DNA of 64,000 bases from Collinsella sp. An7. GTDB taxonomy: Bacteria > Actinomycetota > Coriobacteriia > Coriobacteriales > Coriobacteriaceae. The translations under genes and the position numbers were made by a program. The stretch covers positions 62,001 to 126,000 of the forward strand of contig NZ_NFHP01000003.1 of assembly GCF_002159335.1 (NCBI RefSeq), written 5' to 3'. Shown here one piece after another: positions 9,683 through 63,591 of this stretch; within the stretch, counting starts at the first letter, position 1; each line of letters begins with the position of its first letter. The notes beneath the pieces were generated by a model. That model made no database searches and was not told the DNA's origin. It was given only the letters and a program-made list of their open reading frames with translations.

Positions 9683-10600
9683 ATGGGTTTCTTTGAGAAG
9701 CTGCAGCAGGGTCTCGAGCGCAGTCGCGAGGCTCTGAACGAGATCTTCTACTTTGGTGGAGAGGTCGACGAGTCGTTTTGGGAGGACCTTGAGGACACGC
9801 TCGTGATGGGCGACATGGGCGCCGACATCGCGCTTTCGGTCTCCGACGACTTGCGCGACCTTGCGGCACGCAAGAACCTCAAGACCGCTCCGCAGCTGCG
9901 CCGTGCCCTCGCCGAGCGTCTGTCCCAGATCTTTGTGACGCCCGAACGCGACCCCTTTGAGTCCACGCCCTCGTGCGTGCTCTTTGTGGGCATCAACGGT
10001 GCCGGCAAGACCACCACGGTGGGCAAGATCGCAAGCGCCGCGCACGAGGCGGGCAAGCGCGTGGTGATCGGCTCGGCCGACACCTTCCGCGCGGCCGCCA
10101 TCGAGCAGCTCGATGTGTGGGGCGAGCGCGCCGGCGTACCCGTGGTCAAGCGCGAGCGCGGCTCCGACCCGGCGAGCGTGTGCTACGACGTGCTCGACGA
10201 GGCGGACCGTACCGGTGCCGACCTCGTGCTCATCGATACCGCCGGACGCCTCCACACCTCGCCCGAGCTCATGCGCGAGCTCGCTAAGGTCGTCAATGTC
10301 ACGCGCAAGCGCGCCGCCAAGATGCGCGCCGGTGCTATGGACGTCTACGTGGTGCTCGTCATCGACGCCGCCACCGGCCAAAACGGCCTTACGCAGGCGG
10401 AGGAGTTCAACGAGGCGCTCGGCCTCGACGGCATCATCATGACCAAGCTCGACGGCACGGCCAAGGGAGGCATCGCGCTCGCGGTGGCGCAGAAGCTCCA
10501 TCTTCCCATCTACCGGGCGGGCGTGGGCGAGGCCATCGACGACTTGCAAGCCTTTGATCCGCTGGATTTCTGCAGAGCTCTCGTGGGCGATTCCGACTAG
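9683..10600 (+). CDS. ftsY: signal recognition particle receptor FtsY
   Basis: 305-residue SRP receptor GTPase that docks ribosome-nascent chain complexes at the membrane. It has a short N domain (residues 1-90) and the G domain with GINGAGKTTTVGKIA (about 101-115), DTAGRLHTSPELMREL and TKLDGTAKGG. The acidic A domain of enteric FtsY is absent, as usual in Gram-positive proteins; the amphipathic start MGFFEKLQQGLERSREAL may bind the membrane. The ATG follows the smc stop with no gap, so expression is coupled. Its partner Ffh is the next gene. Confidence 0.96.
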   Translation: MGFFEKLQQGLERSREALNEIFYFGGEVDESFWEDLEDTLVMGDMGADIALSVSDDLRDLAARKNLKTAPQLRRALAERLSQIFVTPERDPFESTPSCVLFVGINGAGKTTTVGKIASAAHEAGKRVVIGSADTFRAAAIEQLDVWGERAGVPVVKRERGSDPASVCYDVLDEADRTGADLVLIDTAGRLHTSPELMRELAKVVNVTRKRAAKMRAGAMDVYVVLVIDAATGQNGLTQAEEFNEALGLDGIIMTKLDGTAKGGIALAVAQKLHLPIYRAGVGEAIDDLQAFDPLDFCRALVGDSD

Positions 10601-10604
10601 CTTT

Positions 10605-10633
10605 TTCTTGTTTGTTCGGGGTCGAGGTAAGAT
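10605..10633 (+). promoter_or_regulatory. sigma-70-like promoter for ffh
   Basis: TTCTTG at 10605-10610 and TAAGAT at 10628-10633 with a 17-base spacer, immediately after ftsY. Hairpin element A would then lie in the ffh leader. Confidence 0.5.
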
Positions 10634-10701
10634 GACTCCAACCCCGCTGGTCCGTAGTCCGTTTGGCCCTTTTTCTTTAGCGAGCACGTAAGGTAGCGCC
10701 A

Positions 10702-10789
10702 GGGCTGGCGTCCGAAGGTTCACCACAAGTTCCGCAGCGAGCAGCGCGAGCGAGGACTGCCCGGGCGGGGAACCTTCGGACGTCAGCCC
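10702..10789. repeat. hairpin element A (variable arms, conserved loop class 1)
   Basis: Arms 10702-10721 and 10770-10789 are complementary at 19 of 20 positions (start GGGCTGGCGTCCGAAG), enclosing a 48-nt loop. The loop carries TTCCGCAG (10730-10737) and CGAGGAC (10751-10757), the same two blocks that bound the centre of the loop in elements F and G near 63 kb, although the arms are unrelated to theirs. It lies between ftsY and ffh and has no T run after it. Confidence 0.75.
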
Positions 10790-10818
10790 GACCGGGAGCA
10801 ATATACGATAGGAGCCCC

Positions 10819-12312
10819 ATGTTCAATAACCTTTCCGACCGCCTGAACGACACCTTTGACCGCCTGCGCGGCAAGGGCAAACTCACCGAGGCCGATATCA
10901 CGAGCGCGATGCGCGACATCCGCATGGCGCTTCTCGAGGCGGACGTTAACTTCAAGGTCGTCAAGGACTTCGTCGCCAAGACGAAGGAGCGCTGCATGAC
11001 CGCCGACGTCCTGGAGTCGCTCACGCCGGCCCAGAACGTCGTCAAGATCGTGCTCGATGAGCTCGTTGAGCTCCTCGGCTCCACCGAGAGCAAACTGGTG
11101 CTGTCGAGCCGCATCCCCAACGTCATCATGCTCGTGGGCCTGCAGGGCTCCGGTAAGACCACCGCGGCGGTAAAGCTTGCATACATGCTCAAGAAGCAGG
11201 GTCGCTCGCCGCTTCTCGCCGCGTGCGACGTCTACCGTCCCGCCGCCGCCGACCAGCTCGCCACGCTCGGCGGTGAGATTGGCGTGCCAGTCTTTCGCGG
11301 CGACGGTGCCCATCCGGTCGAGATCGCCCAGGGCGCCATCAAGGAGGCCGTCGACCACCTGCGCGATGTGGTGATCGTCGATACCGCCGGCCGCCTGCAG
11401 ATCGACGAGCAGATGATGCAGGAGGCCGTGGACATCAAGCGCGCGGTCAAGCCCGACCAGGTGCTCATGGTCGTCGACGCCATGACCGGCCAGGACATCG
11501 TCAACGTGGTCTCGACCTTTGCCGAGCGTACCGACTTTGACGGCGTCATCATCTCCAAGCTCGACGGCGATGCGCGCGGCGGCGGTGCCCTGTCGGTTCG
11601 CGCCGTGACGGGCAAGCCCATCAAGTTCGTCTCGATGGGCGAGAAGCCCGAGTCGCTCGAGGTGTTCAGCCCGGACCGCATGGCCAAGCGCATCCTTGGC
11701 ATGGGCGACGTGGTGGGCATCATCGAGAAGGCCCAGGAGGTCGCCGACGCCGAGCAGATGGAGGCCGCCGAGCGCATGCTGCGCGAGGGCCTTACCATGG
11801 ACGACATGCTCGAGCAGATGCGCGCCGTGCGCAAGATGGGCGGCATGAAGGGCATCTTGGGGATGCTGCCCGGCGGCCAGCGTGCGCTCAACCAGATGGG
11901 CGGCAACGTTGACGAGTCGATCCTCGACAAGAACGAGGCCATGATCCAGTCGATGACCAAGGCGGAGCGCCTCAACCCCAAGTGCATCAACGGCCAGCGT
12001 CGCGCGCGCATCGCCCGCGGCTCGGGCACCACGCCCACCGACGTGAACAACCTGCTCAAGCAGTGGGGCGAGATGAACAAGATGATGGGCAAGATGCGCG
12101 CGATGGCCCAGCAGGCCGGCGCCAAGAAGGGCAAAAAGGGCAAGAAGGGCAAGAAGATGCGTGTGCCCGGTATGCCCGGCATGGCCAACCTCGGCTCGCT
12201 CATGGGCGGCGGCAACCCGCTCGCCGGCATGGGCGGTATGGGTGGTTCGGGCTCGAGCGACATGGACATGCTGCGCGCCATGGAGCAGCAGATGAAGGGC
12301 CGCAAGTTCTAG
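10819..12312 (+). CDS. ffh: signal recognition particle protein Ffh
   Basis: 497-residue SRP54 GTPase that binds signal peptides and 4.5S RNA. The N domain is followed by the G domain with GLQGSGKTT (residues 107-115), DTAGRLQID and SKLDGDARGG; the Met-rich M domain runs from about 300 to 440 (DDMLEQMRAVRKMGGMKG, MNKMMGKMRAMAQQ). An unusual tail adds a KKGKKGKKGKK run and a Gly/Met-rich stretch (GMPGMANLGSLMGGG). TAGGAG lies 5 bases upstream of the ATG. Follows ftsY, its receptor, after a 218-base gap containing hairpin A. No 4.5S RNA gene was recognised nearby. Confidence 0.96.
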   Translation: MFNNLSDRLNDTFDRLRGKGKLTEADITSAMRDIRMALLEADVNFKVVKDFVAKTKERCMTADVLESLTPAQNVVKIVLDELVELLGSTESKLVLSSRIPNVIMLVGLQGSGKTTAAVKLAYMLKKQGRSPLLAACDVYRPAAADQLATLGGEIGVPVFRGDGAHPVEIAQGAIKEAVDHLRDVVIVDTAGRLQIDEQMMQEAVDIKRAVKPDQVLMVVDAMTGQDIVNVVSTFAERTDFDGVIISKLDGDARGGGALSVRAVTGKPIKFVSMGEKPESLEVFSPDRMAKRILGMGDVVGIIEKAQEVADAEQMEAAERMLREGLTMDDMLEQMRAVRKMGGMKGILGMLPGGQRALNQMGGNVDESILDKNEAMIQSMTKAERLNPKCINGQRRARIARGSGTTPTDVNNLLKQWGEMNKMMGKMRAMAQQAGAKKGKKGKKGKKMRVPGMPGMANLGSLMGGGNPLAGMGGMGGSGSSDMDMLRAMEQQMKGRKF

Positions 12313-13072: not shown

Positions 13073-13921
13073 ATGAGCAAGGCGGACGTTCAGTTTGTAA
13101 CGATGTGCCGCGACATCTTGGACCACGGCACCACGACGGAGGGCGAGAAAGTGCGCCCCCATTGGGAGGACGGCACGCCGGCCTACACCATCAAGAACTT
13201 TGGCGTGACGGCGCGCTACGACCTGCGCGAGGAGTTTCCCGCGCTCACGCTTCGACGCACGGCGCTCAAGTCGGCCATGGACGAGATCCTCTGGATCTAC
13301 CAGAAGAAGTCTAATAACATCCATGACCTCAAGAGCCACATTTGGGACGAGTGGGCAGACGAGACGGGCTCCATCGGCAAGGCGTACGGCTACCAGATCG
13401 GTCAGGTCTCGCACTATCCCGAGGGCGACTTCGATCAGATGGACCGTGTGCTGTACGACCTTACGCACACCCCGTTTTCGCGGCGCATCATGACCAACAT
13501 GTACACCTTCGCCGACCTCCACGAGATGAACCTCTACCCGTGCGCGTACAGCGTGACCTACAACGTCACCCACGCGGAGGGCGACGAGCGCCCGACGCTC
13601 AACATGTGCCTCATGCAGCGCAGCCAGGACATCCTCGCGGCGAACAACTGGAACGTGTGCCAGTACGCGATTCTGCTCATGATGGTCGCGCAGGTGACAG
13701 GCATGGTTGCGGGCGAGCTCCTGCACGTGATCGTGGACGCGCACATCTACGACCGGCACGTGCCCATCATCCGCGAGCTCATCGAGCGGCCGCAGTATCC
13801 GGCGCCCACCGTGCGGCTGAACCCCGAGGTCACTGACTTCTACGACTTTACGACCGATGACCTGATCGTGGAGAACTATCAGCACGGGCCGCAGATCAAG
13901 GGGATTCCCATTGCGGTGTAG
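13073..13921 (+). CDS. thyA: thymidylate synthase (divergent ThyA)
   Basis: 282 residues. ThyA makes dTMP from dUMP using methylene-tetrahydrofolate, leaving dihydrofolate for DHFR (folA, next gene). Landmarks are RADLREE-type start YDLREEFPALTLRRTALKS, IWDEWADETGSIGKAYGYQ, the active-site cysteine in NLYPCAYSVTYNV (about residue 157), RSQDILAANNWNVCQYA and HIYDRHVPIIREL. The classical PPCH motif is replaced by YPCA, so the residue after the nucleophile is Ala rather than His; I recall this as a subgroup seen in some Gram-positives. ATG 13073 has GAGGAGG upstream. The overlapping earlier frame start (13037) lacks support. Confidence 0.93.
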   Translation: MSKADVQFVTMCRDILDHGTTTEGEKVRPHWEDGTPAYTIKNFGVTARYDLREEFPALTLRRTALKSAMDEILWIYQKKSNNIHDLKSHIWDEWADETGSIGKAYGYQIGQVSHYPEGDFDQMDRVLYDLTHTPFSRRIMTNMYTFADLHEMNLYPCAYSVTYNVTHAEGDERPTLNMCLMQRSQDILAANNWNVCQYAILLMMVAQVTGMVAGELLHVIVDAHIYDRHVPIIRELIERPQYPAPTVRLNPEVTDFYDFTTDDLIVENYQHGPQIKGIPIAV

Positions 13922-13951: not shown

Positions 13952-14032
13952 GGCCCCGAAGAGGGTATATCATCCCGTGCTCAAACAGCGCTTCGCGAAC
14001 CGCGCGCGGGACGATATACCCTCTCCGGGGCC
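13952..14032. repeat. hairpin element B
   Basis: Arms 13952-13977 and 14007-14032 pair at 24 of 26 positions (start GGCCCCGAAGAGGG), with a 29-nt loop that contains GCGCTTCGCG. Both mismatches are transitions that leave G-U pairs in a minus-strand transcript. The loop shares only the CTTCGC apex with elements F and I. Confidence 0.75.
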
Positions 14033-14047
14033 TCTGAGTAGGTGGTT

Positions 14048-14139
14048 GCCTCCCGGGTGGACGCGCCGCGCCGGGGCGCGAGTCGCGCAGCGAGCCGAAG
14101 GCGCCGAGCGAACCGGCGCGGCGCGTCCACCCGGGAGGC
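14048..14139. repeat. hairpin element C (conserved loop class 2)
   Basis: Perfect 27-bp arms at 14048-14074 and 14113-14139 (start GCCTCCCGGGTGGACG) with a 38-nt loop. Loop bases 14078-14110 match bases 35298-35330 of element H at 31 of 33 positions (core GAGTCGCG, then AGCGAGCCGAAGGCGCCGA), while the arms of the two elements are unrelated. Confidence 0.85.
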
Positions 14140-14784: not shown

Positions 14785-15106
14785 GGGGTTGCGGTCGGGT
14801 GCACCCCGAAGCGGTTTTTGTGCGCGCCGGGTGCGTTGCGGGCGCGCTTGACGGCGCTTTGGGCGCAATCGAGGTGCTCTCATTTCGACCGACCCGCGAA
14901 GTGAGTGTTTCTTTTTGGAATCGTCGACGATACTGCATCATGCTAAAGTGCGCACCTGGACGTATGAGAAGATTCAACTTTGTTAAACCCCCTATAACCC
15001 AGTTGGTCCAAAAGATACACTCACTTCCTGGGTCGAATTTTTCTTGCGCTCCCCAATTGGGCGCGATCGGCCCACGTTCATGCGCTACGAAAGGACGGAT
15101 GCCCTC
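14785..15106. other. gene-free gap between folA and the SpoU gene
   Basis: The 322 bases are dominated by element D, a long inverted repeat with an AT-richer interior. No convincing coding frame or tRNA was seen. Confidence 0.75.
14882..15040. repeat. MITE-like inverted repeat D
   Basis: Core arms 14898-14919 (GAAGTGAGTGT then TTCTTTTTGGA) and 15007-15027 (TCCAAAAGATACACTCACTT) pair with one mismatch and one single-base gap; pairing continues outward with indels (TTCGACC...GGGTCGAA) to about 14882 and 15040. The 87-bp interior is AT-richer than its surroundings and starts with a perfect 12-bp palindrome ATCGTCGACGAT (14920-14931). No transposase is encoded. Confidence 0.7.
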
Positions 15107-19642: not shown

Positions 19643-19722
19643 GGGGCCGCCGGGTGCCACCTCCGGAGACGAGCGCTTCGCTCGTTACACGATCGTCTCC
19701 GAAGGTGGCACCCAGCGGCCCC
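19643..19722. repeat. hairpin element I
   Basis: Arms 19643-19672 and 19693-19722 pair at 28 of 30 positions (start GGGGCCGCCGGGTGCC) with a 20-nt loop. A second, nested 7-bp hairpin ACGAGCG-CTT-CGCTCGT sits at the apex. It starts 20 bases after the ftsH stop and could serve as a terminator, but lacks a T run. Confidence 0.75.
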
Positions 19723-21974: not shown

Positions 21975-22385
21975 TTCTTGGGGTGCTAGCGCCTCTTTGC
22001 ATTCGGGCCACTGGCTCGAGCTTCGGATGGCCTGTTCCAGGGGGTCAGTATCAAAACTTCGCGTCAAGGTAAGGATGGAATCGGCCCCTCTCACGTAGAC
22101 CGGCACCATGGCTCGACGTTTTCGCAGGTAGAGAGCGCAACATATTTCGCTATACTCGGCATGCACCCATTTCCATCCTTACCTTGGCGCGAAGTTTTTA
22201 TCTCTGACCCCTCATGCGCGGTGCGATTCGTCCGCGCGCGAGCCCGTTGTCGCCGCGCCGTCAACTTCCCCGCAAGTCCCGTGCGATGCGGTTCTGTCCC
22301 GGCCTCATGCGTCGCCGTATCGCCTTGGATCAACGCTTCGGGCGAGTGGGTACAATGACCGAGATATTCCAAAGAAAGAGGTTTC
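21975..22385. other. 411-base gap upstream of the NYN gene
   Basis: Holds the long inverted repeat E (22041-22211), and a -10-like TACAAT near 22351 that may serve the NYN gene. A minus-strand frame that continues antisense through the glycosyltransferase gene is considered spurious. Confidence 0.7.
22041..22211. repeat. MITE-like inverted repeat E
   Basis: Forty-base arms at 22041-22080 and 22171-22211 start GGGGTCAG and end CTGACCCC; apart from one gap and a few mismatches near TATC/GATA they are complementary through AAAACTTCGCG and CAAGGTAAGGATGGAA. The 90-bp interior carries a -10-like TATACT (about 22151). Overall size (171 bp) and plan resemble element D, but the sequences are different. 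No transposase nearby. Confidence 0.8.
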
Positions 22386-45143: not shown

Positions 45144-47237
45144 ATGGCCGAGACCCGTGATTTCCTGTTTGAGATCGGCACCGAGGAGATGCCCTCTGCA
45201 CCGCTCATGAACGCCGTCAAGCAGTTTGGTCCGCTTGTGGAGCGCGGCCTTTCCGAGGCCGGGCTCGCCCATGGCGAGGCGCGCGTCATCTCGTCGCCGC
45301 GCCGCCTTGCCGTGATCGTGGCGGACGTTGCCACCGCGACCGACGAGGTCCATGAGGTCAAGCGCGGCCCCGCGGCGTCCATCGCATTCGACGCGGACGG
45401 CAACCCCACCAAGGCGGCCGAAGGCTTTGCGCGCAAGTGCGGCGTGCCCGCGACCGAGCTTATCCGTCGCGAGGACACCGACGGTCGCGAGTACGTCTTT
45501 GCCGAGAAGAACATCCCCTCCGCCCCGGCCGAGCCTATCCTTTCCGCGCTCTGCGAGCGCGCGATCGCCGGGCTCGAGTGGCCCAACTACCGCAGCCAAC
45601 GCTGGGGCTCCACGCACGAGACCTTCGTTCGACCGATCCGCTGGCTCTGCGTGCTCCTGGGGAGCGAGGTCGTGCCCGTCCGTTATGCAGACGTTGTCTC
45701 GGGGAATACCACTCGTGGGCACCGCGTGCTGGGGCCGGGCGAGCATGTCGTGGCCGAGCCCGCCGTCTACGAGCAGGTGCTCGAGGAGGCCGGCGTGCTC
45801 TCCGAGGAGCGCCGCCGCGCCGTCATCGCCGAGGGTATCGCACGCGTTGAGGCCGAGCGTTCGGGCGCGCACGTCGACACGCCCAAGAAGGTGCTCGACG
45901 AGGTCGTGAACCTCTGCGAGTGGCCGACGGTGCTCGTGGGACGCTTCGATGAGGAGTTCCTCGCCGTCCCGCACGAGATCATCTGCGAGTCGATGCTCTC
46001 CAACCAGCGCTATTTCCCCATCTACGACGCTTCGGGCGCGCTCACCCGTGAGTTCGTGGTGGTCGCCAACGGGCGCCCCGAGTGCGCCGAGACCATCATC
46101 GACGGCAACGAGCGCGTGGTCCGCGCCCGCCTCTACGACGCTAAATTCTTCTACGACGAGGACCTCAAGGTCTCGCTCGAGGAGTTCCGCTCGCGTCTGG
46201 CTGAGGTCGCCTTCCAGGAGAAGCTCGGGAGCGTCCTTGCCAAGTCTGAGCGCATCGAGGACCTTGCCCTCGCCATCGCGCACGAGGCGCGCGTGGGCGC
46301 CAACACCGCCTCCGACGCGCAGCGCGCCGCCCACTTCGCCAAGGCCGACCTCGTATCCGGCGCGGTGGTGGAGTTTACGAGCCAGCAGGGCGTCATGGGC
46401 GGCTACTATGCGCTTGCTGCGGGCGAGACGCCTGCGGTGGCCGCAGCCATTCGCGACCACTACCGTCCGCGTTTTGCCGGCGATGCCCTTCCCGAGGGCA
46501 CGGCCGGTTGCATCGTGGCCGTGGCCGATAAGCTCGACACCATCGCCGGCATGTTTGCCATCGGCGAGCCCCCGACGGGCTCCAAGGACCCGTTTGCGCT
46601 CCGTCGCTCGGCCATCGGCGTGATCAACATCCTGCGCGAGCGCCTGGGCTGCGGCTATGAGGCCCTTGTGGCGGCCGCACTCCACGCGTACGCCGAGCAG
46701 GGCATCGTTTTTGATAAAGACGAGGTCGCGGTGGCCGTGTGCGGTTTTTTGAAGGGCCGCATGGAGCAGATGGCGCGCGACGCGCACGTGCCGGCCGACG
46801 TTGTGACCGCGGTCTCGGCGGGCAGCGTCTCCGCCCCGGCCGATTTCTTCGCGCTCGCCGAGGCGCTCCGCGACGCGCGCGAGAGCGACCCCGAGACCTT
46901 TGAGAACCTCGCCGTTGCCTACGCCCGCGCAAGCCATCTCGCCGATACGACGCTGGGTGTGGAGGTTGACGAGTCGCTTATGGGCGAGGCCGAGCGCGAG
47001 CTCCTCCTCGCTACGGACGCCGCCCGCGACGCCGTTGCGCTTGCGCTCGAGAAGAAGGATTTCGCTGCGGTCATCGCCTCGCTCGCGGCGCTCCGCGAGC
47101 CCATCGACCGCTTCTTTGAGGACGTCATGGTCATGGACGAGGACCCGGCGCTCCGTTCGAACCGCCTCAAGCTTCTCAACCGCTTCGAGACCGTCTTTGC
47201 CGACGTGGCCGACATGGGCGCACTCGCCAAGAAGTGA
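45144..47237 (+). CDS. glyS: glycyl-tRNA synthetase beta subunit
   Basis: 697-residue beta subunit that contributes tRNA binding. Family features are [15 protein letters not shown] at the start, [55 protein letters not shown] and [15 protein letters not shown]; the DALR-like anticodon-binding part ends with [23 protein letters not shown] 45144 follows the glyQ stop without a gap. The stop lies inside hairpin J. Confidence 0.96.
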
Positions 47238-47303
47238 GAATCCGGGGACGGGTGCGTTTTTCTCACTTTTGAGAAAAACGCACCCGTCCCCATATTCTCA
47301 CTT
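47232..47303. repeat. long near-perfect hairpin J overlapping the glyS stop
   Basis: Arms 47232-47265 and 47270-47303 pair at 32 of 34 positions (only CC/AT unpaired at 47242-47243), with a 4-nt CTTT loop. The arm contains GGGGACGGGTGCG and TTTTTCTCA. It covers the glyS stop codon and ends inside the -35 box of the rplS promoter. It shares the GGGGACG motif with element K. Confidence 0.85.
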
Positions 47304-63084: not shown

Positions 63085-63170
63085 GGCGTGGGGCACGGTT
63101 GTTCTTTCCTCGCTGGTCCTCGGGCTTCGCCCTGCGGAATCGCTCGGAAAGAACAACCGTGCCCCACGCC
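63085..63170. repeat. hairpin element F (conserved loop class 1)
   Basis: Perfect 25-bp arms at 63085-63109 and 63146-63170 (start GGCGTGGGGCACGG) with a 36-nt loop at 63110-63145. The loop is the exact reverse complement of the loop of element G; its centre is GGGCTTCGCCC, a small nested hairpin. Confidence 0.9.
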
Positions 63171-63505: not shown

Positions 63506-63591
63506 TCCCGGGGCGGGCGAGCTGTATTCTGAGCGATTCCGCAGGGCGAAGCCCGAGGACCAGCGAAGAATTCAGCCCGCCCGCCCCGGGA
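63506..63591. repeat. hairpin element G (conserved loop class 1)
   Basis: Arms 63506-63530 and 63567-63591 pair at 23 of 25 positions (start TCCCGGGGCGGGCG). The 36-nt loop 63531-63566, with TTCCGCAG and CGAGGAC around GGGCGAAGCCC, is identical to that of element F in inverted orientation, while the arms share no similarity with F. Confidence 0.9.

Follow-up and report, generated by a model that had tools for sequence, protein, structure and literature searches.

In the genome of Collinsella sp. An7 the gap between ftsY (9683..10600, plus strand; named in the initial annotation and by cross-match with Ffh) and ffh (10819..12312, plus strand; from gene calls) holds a hairpin, element A (10702-10789, plus strand), with two short blocks that also occur in two other hairpins of the window, by which we mean the whole 64 000 nt stretch of DNA analysed. 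Do these blocks mark a genuine family of elements and, if so, what keeps them constant while the arms around them differ?

A hairpin family in the window

The outer arms of A were located by repeat search at 10702..10724 and 10767..10789 (plus strand); the left arm is also apparent from covariation at the ffh locus and the right one from the fold z-score of A, -4.8. The initial annotation had described arms of 20 bp; the inverted repeat stands, the length does not, as the arms are 23 nt long and 91% complementary. Block 1, TTCCGCAG (10730..10737, plus strand), and block 2, CGAGGAC (10751..10757, plus strand), are near-invariant in alignments and form the 5′ and 3′ sides of a conserved internal loop; the spacer between them (10738..10750, plus strand) forms a weak hairpin in A and a perfect one in the majority of the other copies. 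Weak flank motifs were observed in the window's family, CGCA at the left base and GGGAG a few bases to the right of the right arm; judged by sequence, their local forms at A are GCGCCA (10696..10701, plus strand) and GACCGGGAG (10790..10798, plus strand).

Element F (63085..63170, minus strand) runs antisense to the 3′ end of ispG, the gene before it, and element G (63506..63591, plus strand; TTCCGCAG at 63537-63544, CGAGGAC at 63554-63560) lies in sense orientation upstream of proS. Comparison of all three bore out that the arms of A are unrelated to those of F and G, and that TTCCGCAG and CGAGGAC follow each other in A in the order and orientation seen in G and, on the minus strand, F. The spacer, read initially as an apex of different length, indeed differs, with 13 nt in A as opposed to 9 nt in both F and G.

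A covariance-model search had been proposed in the initial annotation. As A was among the training sequences of our model R1, we relied on a second model, R2, trained on 19 sequences, none of them from the family to which the window's genome belongs (Eggerthellaceae, Atopobiaceae, Omnitrophota and others). R2 recovered F, G and A (E-values 1.3e-7, 2.8e-6 and 1.2e-5, respectively), thus placing A in the same family as F and G. Could two short GC-rich words simply recur by chance in the gaps? Taken singly, the words are common (9 and 41 matches), but the joint pattern block1-N{3,25}-block2 had three matches in the window versus 0.01 expected from dinucleotide shuffles, and 11 in the 2.37-Mb genome versus 0 for the reversed pattern, so that the test named initially as able to overturn the family fails to do so and, with the E-value of A from the independent model, we reject chance as having practically no probability left. 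One of the 11 genomic matches (G000:C15:82452), inside a gene and without arms, is itself a chance match. The blocks are strongly constrained, as had been proposed. An unselected test was provided by 81 distinct block matches drawn from all prokaryote species regardless of arms; complementary arms were present in 95% of them, compared with 7% when flanks were exchanged between copies.

R2 also matched a fourth, block-poor copy in the window at 13962-14024 (minus strand; E = 5e-6). This copy, a class-c relative spanning 13952..14032 (minus strand), is antisense, 31 nt past a stop codon; it has retained the TGTTTGAGCACGGG side and lost TTCCGCAG/CGAGGAC. The region 13952-14139, past the gene ending at 13921, contains two long hairpins with 16 nt between them, the second of which (14048-14139) received a weak R2 score (E = 0.07).

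Several other structures were seen in the window. A hairpin at 19643-19722, past ftsH, has a different conserved loop, GACGAGCGCTTCGCTCGTTACACGATCGTC; at the ftsH site of genome G008 there is nearly the same GACGAGCGCTTCGCTCGTTACACGATCGTC-type loop with other arms, and at that of G003 and G005 the TTCCGCAG class is found instead. This comparison suggests that several loop classes may compete for the same sites. A MITE-like inverted repeat of 34 bp, 94% complementary with a 4-nt loop (AAGTGAGAATCC...GGTGCGTTTTTCTCA), lies at 47232-47303, and inverted repeats of 26-31 bp with ∼90 nt between them, similar to MITE or IS ends, are at 22050-22201 and 14890-15035.

Conserved loop and covarying arms

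Copies of the element are hairpins some 85-120 bp long, in which the arms vary in sequence yet remain complementary, the internal loop is near-invariant and the inner hairpin is free in sequence. The initial annotation had placed the blocks in a single-stranded loop around an apex. In nearly all copies, though, the nucleotides separating the blocks, free in sequence, fold into a perfect hairpin of their own; therefore the blocks make up the opposite strands of an asymmetric internal loop, UUCCGCAG / CGAGGAC, which separates the long outer stem from the inner hairpin. They face each other, with UCC paired to GGA and GCA/GA unpaired. In the commonest class the outer part consists of the variable arm, GC, a G / GUUUGA loop and AG paired with CU, followed inwards by a bulged U, the UCC-GGA pairing, the GCA / GA loop, a G-C pair and the inner hairpin. 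Neighbours of the loop are class-specific, e.g. AG/CUGUUUGAGC; other classes have GCGAACA...GTTCGC or, as in F and G, GAGCGA...CAGCGAA, and keep TTCCGCAG/CGAGGAC. The invariance of the loop in our sets A1 and A3 is partly built in, as their sequences were found via the loop and copies with good arms were preferred.

A longer subclass, present in G224, G193 and the genome of the window itself, has an extra module with a CAGTG-type tip. At loci L299-L318 and L333-L338 the inner stem is capped by CCAGTGG/CAGTG in many copies, and a second module lies below this tip. Possibly related diverged cores (TCCGCTG...CGAGGGG), apparently in the opposite orientation, were seen at L340 (G006, 3′ end of fba) and at L251/L252, at the same site as the G003 and G005 copies. 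L346 (G007, 3′ end of ftsH), with its far half deleted, is an apparent decay product.

The arms had been thought free to vary; they covary instead. In 42 copies, 17 of the 19 arm pairs showed changes on both sides, and the covariation score was 0.419, compared with 0.148 +/- 0.012 for shuffled alignments and at most 0.283 for slid registers. The ffh leader has the element in eight species of four genera; the arm sequences are largely unrelated, pairing is kept at this orthologous site (standard pairs in 90% of pair cells) and the score reaches 0.581 (0.213 shuffled, at most 0.122 slid). In the thrB leader, where seven species have the element, GGGCCC/GGGCCC of G001 corresponds to GTGCCC/GGGCAC of G002, and at ftsH of G002 the conserved helix carries a compensatory C-G to U-A change. 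The element is absent where ffh (after ftsY) or thrB follows its upstream neighbour at a short distance.

The candidate -10 box of an ffh promoter, TAAGAT (10628..10633, plus strand), corresponds in position to TAGAGT, TACAAT or TATACT upstream of ffh in relatives and would place A in the ffh leader. At A itself no sigma-70 promoter was found by consensus scan and no terminator was called in either direction. Conservation of position and pairing at ffh and thrB across species and genera suggests a local function, which a purely selfish repeat would not need; a role of A in ffh expression is putative. The covarying leaders of both genes, the loss of the element together with the leader where the gene directly adjoins the one upstream, the compensatory change at ftsH and the fold z-score of A all speak for an element acting at the RNA level, regulatory or stabilising, the loop of which an RNA-binding protein or a nuclease would recognise in leaders and 3′ UTRs.

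Position, polarity and distribution

Polarity was determined for 121 deduplicated intergenic copies, with genes called by a codon-usage model written for this work. The 3′ end of a gene was on the CGAGGAC side in 63 cases and on the other side in 8 (p = 1e-11); a start codon was on the CGAGGAC side in 29 cases and on the other in 5 (p = 4e-5). As the CGAGGAC side faces the gene at both ends, copies are antisense just past stop codons and sense before start codons, and orientation by direction of transcription alone was rejected. Back-to-back copies occur in many intergenic regions (F and G, leuC, leuD, infA). In leaders, sense copies of ffh, leuC, leuD, cysS and thrB have 47-82 nt between core and start codon; for proS, infA, purL and ybaB this distance is 100-145 nt and the copies lie upstream of a TATCAT-like box, a promoter read from sequence only. 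Copies at 3′ ends begin 10-20 nt past the stop codon, often with TGCGTTT next in the sense of the gene. In rubrerythrin orthologs without the element, other GC-rich hairpins occupy the same place, several being plain T-run terminators. The adjoining genes, named from sequence, are generic housekeeping genes unrelated to each other, and a common regulon was rejected.

In a collection with one genome per species, R2 counted about 20 copies in the majority of genomes from the genus and between 0 and 23 in the family's other genera. The related genome G224 has 50, and copy number is patchy between close species. R1 had matches in 16 of the 198 genomes of the phylum sample, mostly in Coriobacteriia. 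A scan of 85 000 species with the strict pattern gave 96 stretches, in Coriobacteriia and also in Lachnospiraceae, Omnitrophota and Dormibacterota. Relatives are present in Eggerthellaceae, Atopobiaceae, Lachnospiraceae and Omnitrophota, and the loop is identical from Coriobacteriia to Lachnospiraceae and Omnitrophota.

IMG/VR had no match to the strict pattern and, for the relaxed one, a single viral contig, where the match lacks hairpin arms; no plasmid or phage record covered 80% of the core. A phage- or plasmid-borne MITE was rejected on these grounds. Apparent matches in T-even-like phages and Salmonella plasmids were also rejected, having only AGCGAAGCGA-like words in common, without arms. 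With no Rfam match at gathering score in the window, and chance-level miRNA/snoRNA matches for A, F and G, a known RNA family was rejected as well. The literature search yielded no relevant paper quoting the core sequence. The palindromic element family is previously undescribed.

In G224 and two Lachnospiraceae genomes, paralogous copies share the core and the inner arms, the outer arms being unique and complementary. Such paralogs suggest that the core has been copied into new hairpin contexts. An autonomous copy, i.e. an ORF between half-elements, was sought in G224, G193 and two Lachnospiraceae genomes and rejected, since the candidates were mostly diverged or contig-end copies; none was present in the 30 loci checked. 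Right halves without the left-half pattern made up 7 of 36, most of them diverged or at contig ends.

Maintenance and proposed spread of the element

The RNA-level explanation, to which the leaders point, is weakened by polarity: a transcript would have the sense loop in leaders and its reverse complement in 3′ UTRs, and yet invariance of the loop is the same in the two settings. Some sense copies (proS, infA, purL) are upstream of the likely promoter, the adjoining genes share no regulon, and the arms have no preference for G.U. Overall, arm mismatches comprised 63 G.U and 75 A.C, thus without the excess of G.U over A.C that would mark a structure-selected RNA, a comparison made without a positive control from known RNA. 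The balance does not differ between sense 5′ copies (29 vs 34) and antisense 3′ copies (34 vs 41); a strand-specific wobble signature of RNA selection, present as a weak trend in a smaller set (p = 0.09), disappeared in the larger one and was rejected. We consider RNA-level function unlikely, while still giving it appreciable weight.

Rearrangement of the DNA itself was observed upstream of purL, where, between conserved flanks, G003 has the interior of the element in the inverse orientation to that of G002 and G007; between G002 and G007, in nearly identical surroundings, a block difference is confined to one arm. Homogenisation of arms and inversion of the spacer are two known products of template switching (PMC8604942), and PMC8794818 likewise documents this mechanism in quasipalindromes. 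The lack of a strand preference in wobble pairs, the in-place inversion and the one-arm block change make it probable that template switching, acting on the DNA, maintains the pairing of the arms.

One could then suppose that copies are ordinary long intrinsic terminators or leader hairpins, shaped by template switching and gene conversion alone with no dedicated factor. The rearrangements at purL, of the kind described in PMC8604942 and PMC8794818, would fit, as would the 3′ copies that start 10-20 nt past the stop codon and often run into TGCGTTT, and the other GC-rich hairpins or plain terminators found in their place in element-free orthologs. Intrinsic terminators are GC-rich hairpins with a T run immediately after them on the transcribed strand; the 3′ copies of the element are GC-rich hairpins just past stop codons, often with a partial U tract (TGCGTTT) beyond the hairpin. 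What sets the element apart is its invariant internal loop, together with the copies of opposite orientation in leaders or ahead of promoters, positions in which a simple terminator is excluded; leaders need read-through, and no terminator was called at A. Also, like the quasipalindromes of these two sources, the element has arms homogenised in blocks and an interior that inverts, but its asymmetric loop, unchanged across phyla, is not explained by that process alone. Left to itself, template switching would be expected to remove asymmetric loops; hence the loop must either be selected or be spreading. Ordinary hairpins are a distinctly unlikely explanation.

Mobilisation of a known REP superfamily member by a RAYT (TnpA-REP) transposase is improbable. 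In that superfamily GTAG (GYAG) or CGTC is present at one hairpin end in >90% of the members of most families. Here, GYAG at the left base was found in 25/87 copies in f1 and 11/54 in others (1-2 in controls; 2/87 at the right base in f1); it is enriched, but the GTAG/GYAG tag is missing in about 70%. Y1 genes occur in most, not all, f1 genomes, but copy number is independent of them: Y1/RAYT (PF01797) is absent from the copy-bearing genomes G001, G224, G048, G053, G182 and G079, and as G001 has 23 copies and G224 has 50, RAYT/Y1 was rejected as the mobiliser. Nor was a Y1 gene seen adjoining an element, and arm sequence is not conserved. Similarity to REP, BIME and REPIN sequences (GTAG and CGTC families; PMC3733652) is seen in the small dispersed intergenic palindromes, here about 20 and up to 50 copies per genome, in the frequent inverted pairs (35-400 nt apart) and in stems with alternative complementary residues and internal mismatches. 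The arms of our element are much longer (20-30 bp) and site-specific in sequence, an asymmetric internal loop is conserved rather than stem or terminal tag, and the element is strictly oriented with respect to genes and shows no association with those for RAYT.

The reading we tentatively prefer, with not quite an even chance of being right, is that A belongs to a dispersed, REP-like family of palindromic DNA elements with a loop recognised by a putative trans-acting factor. The loop, suggested from the start as a protein or RNA binding site, would be the recognition site of a factor reading the extruded or single-stranded hairpin, and the same putative factor would spread the element between genomes. 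The arms would merely scaffold the loop, their complementarity being kept largely by template switching during replication, with homogenisation of arms and occasional inversion of the interior. Copies at gene borders may act as, or be harmless within, a terminator hairpin that follows a stop codon or a leader or upstream hairpin before start codons, and may persist there because they are useful or harmless. Counting against this REP-like reading, no mobiliser, binding protein or other partner of the loop was identified in our searches, and plain insertion as a model does not account for the strict polarity.

A bolder version, which we regard as somewhat unlikely, is a new class of structure-recognised mobile palindromes in Actinomycetota, Bacillota and Omnitrophota with arms re-made by template switching. 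A putative enzyme would recognise the folded strand by its internal loop alone, and the element would enter gene-border hairpins with fixed polarity; continual re-synthesis of the arms would make copies look unrelated except for the loop. In integron attC sites the arms vary freely but must pair, and the folded strand with a few unpaired bases is recognised. Our element resembles attC in its freely varying yet paired arms and differs in the lack of cassette arrays, in inverted pairs rather than direct repeats and in the bases conserved.

Since only about 15 bases and the fold are common to all copies, the family is missed by ordinary similarity searches, and it has no Rfam entry. The element joins two questions commonly treated apart: whether selection or template switching keeps long perfect hairpins perfect, and which features delimit transcription units in Coriobacteriia. 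We know of no REP or terminator model that explains its strict polarity; that the same side of the element is turned towards the gene at both start and end is directly testable.
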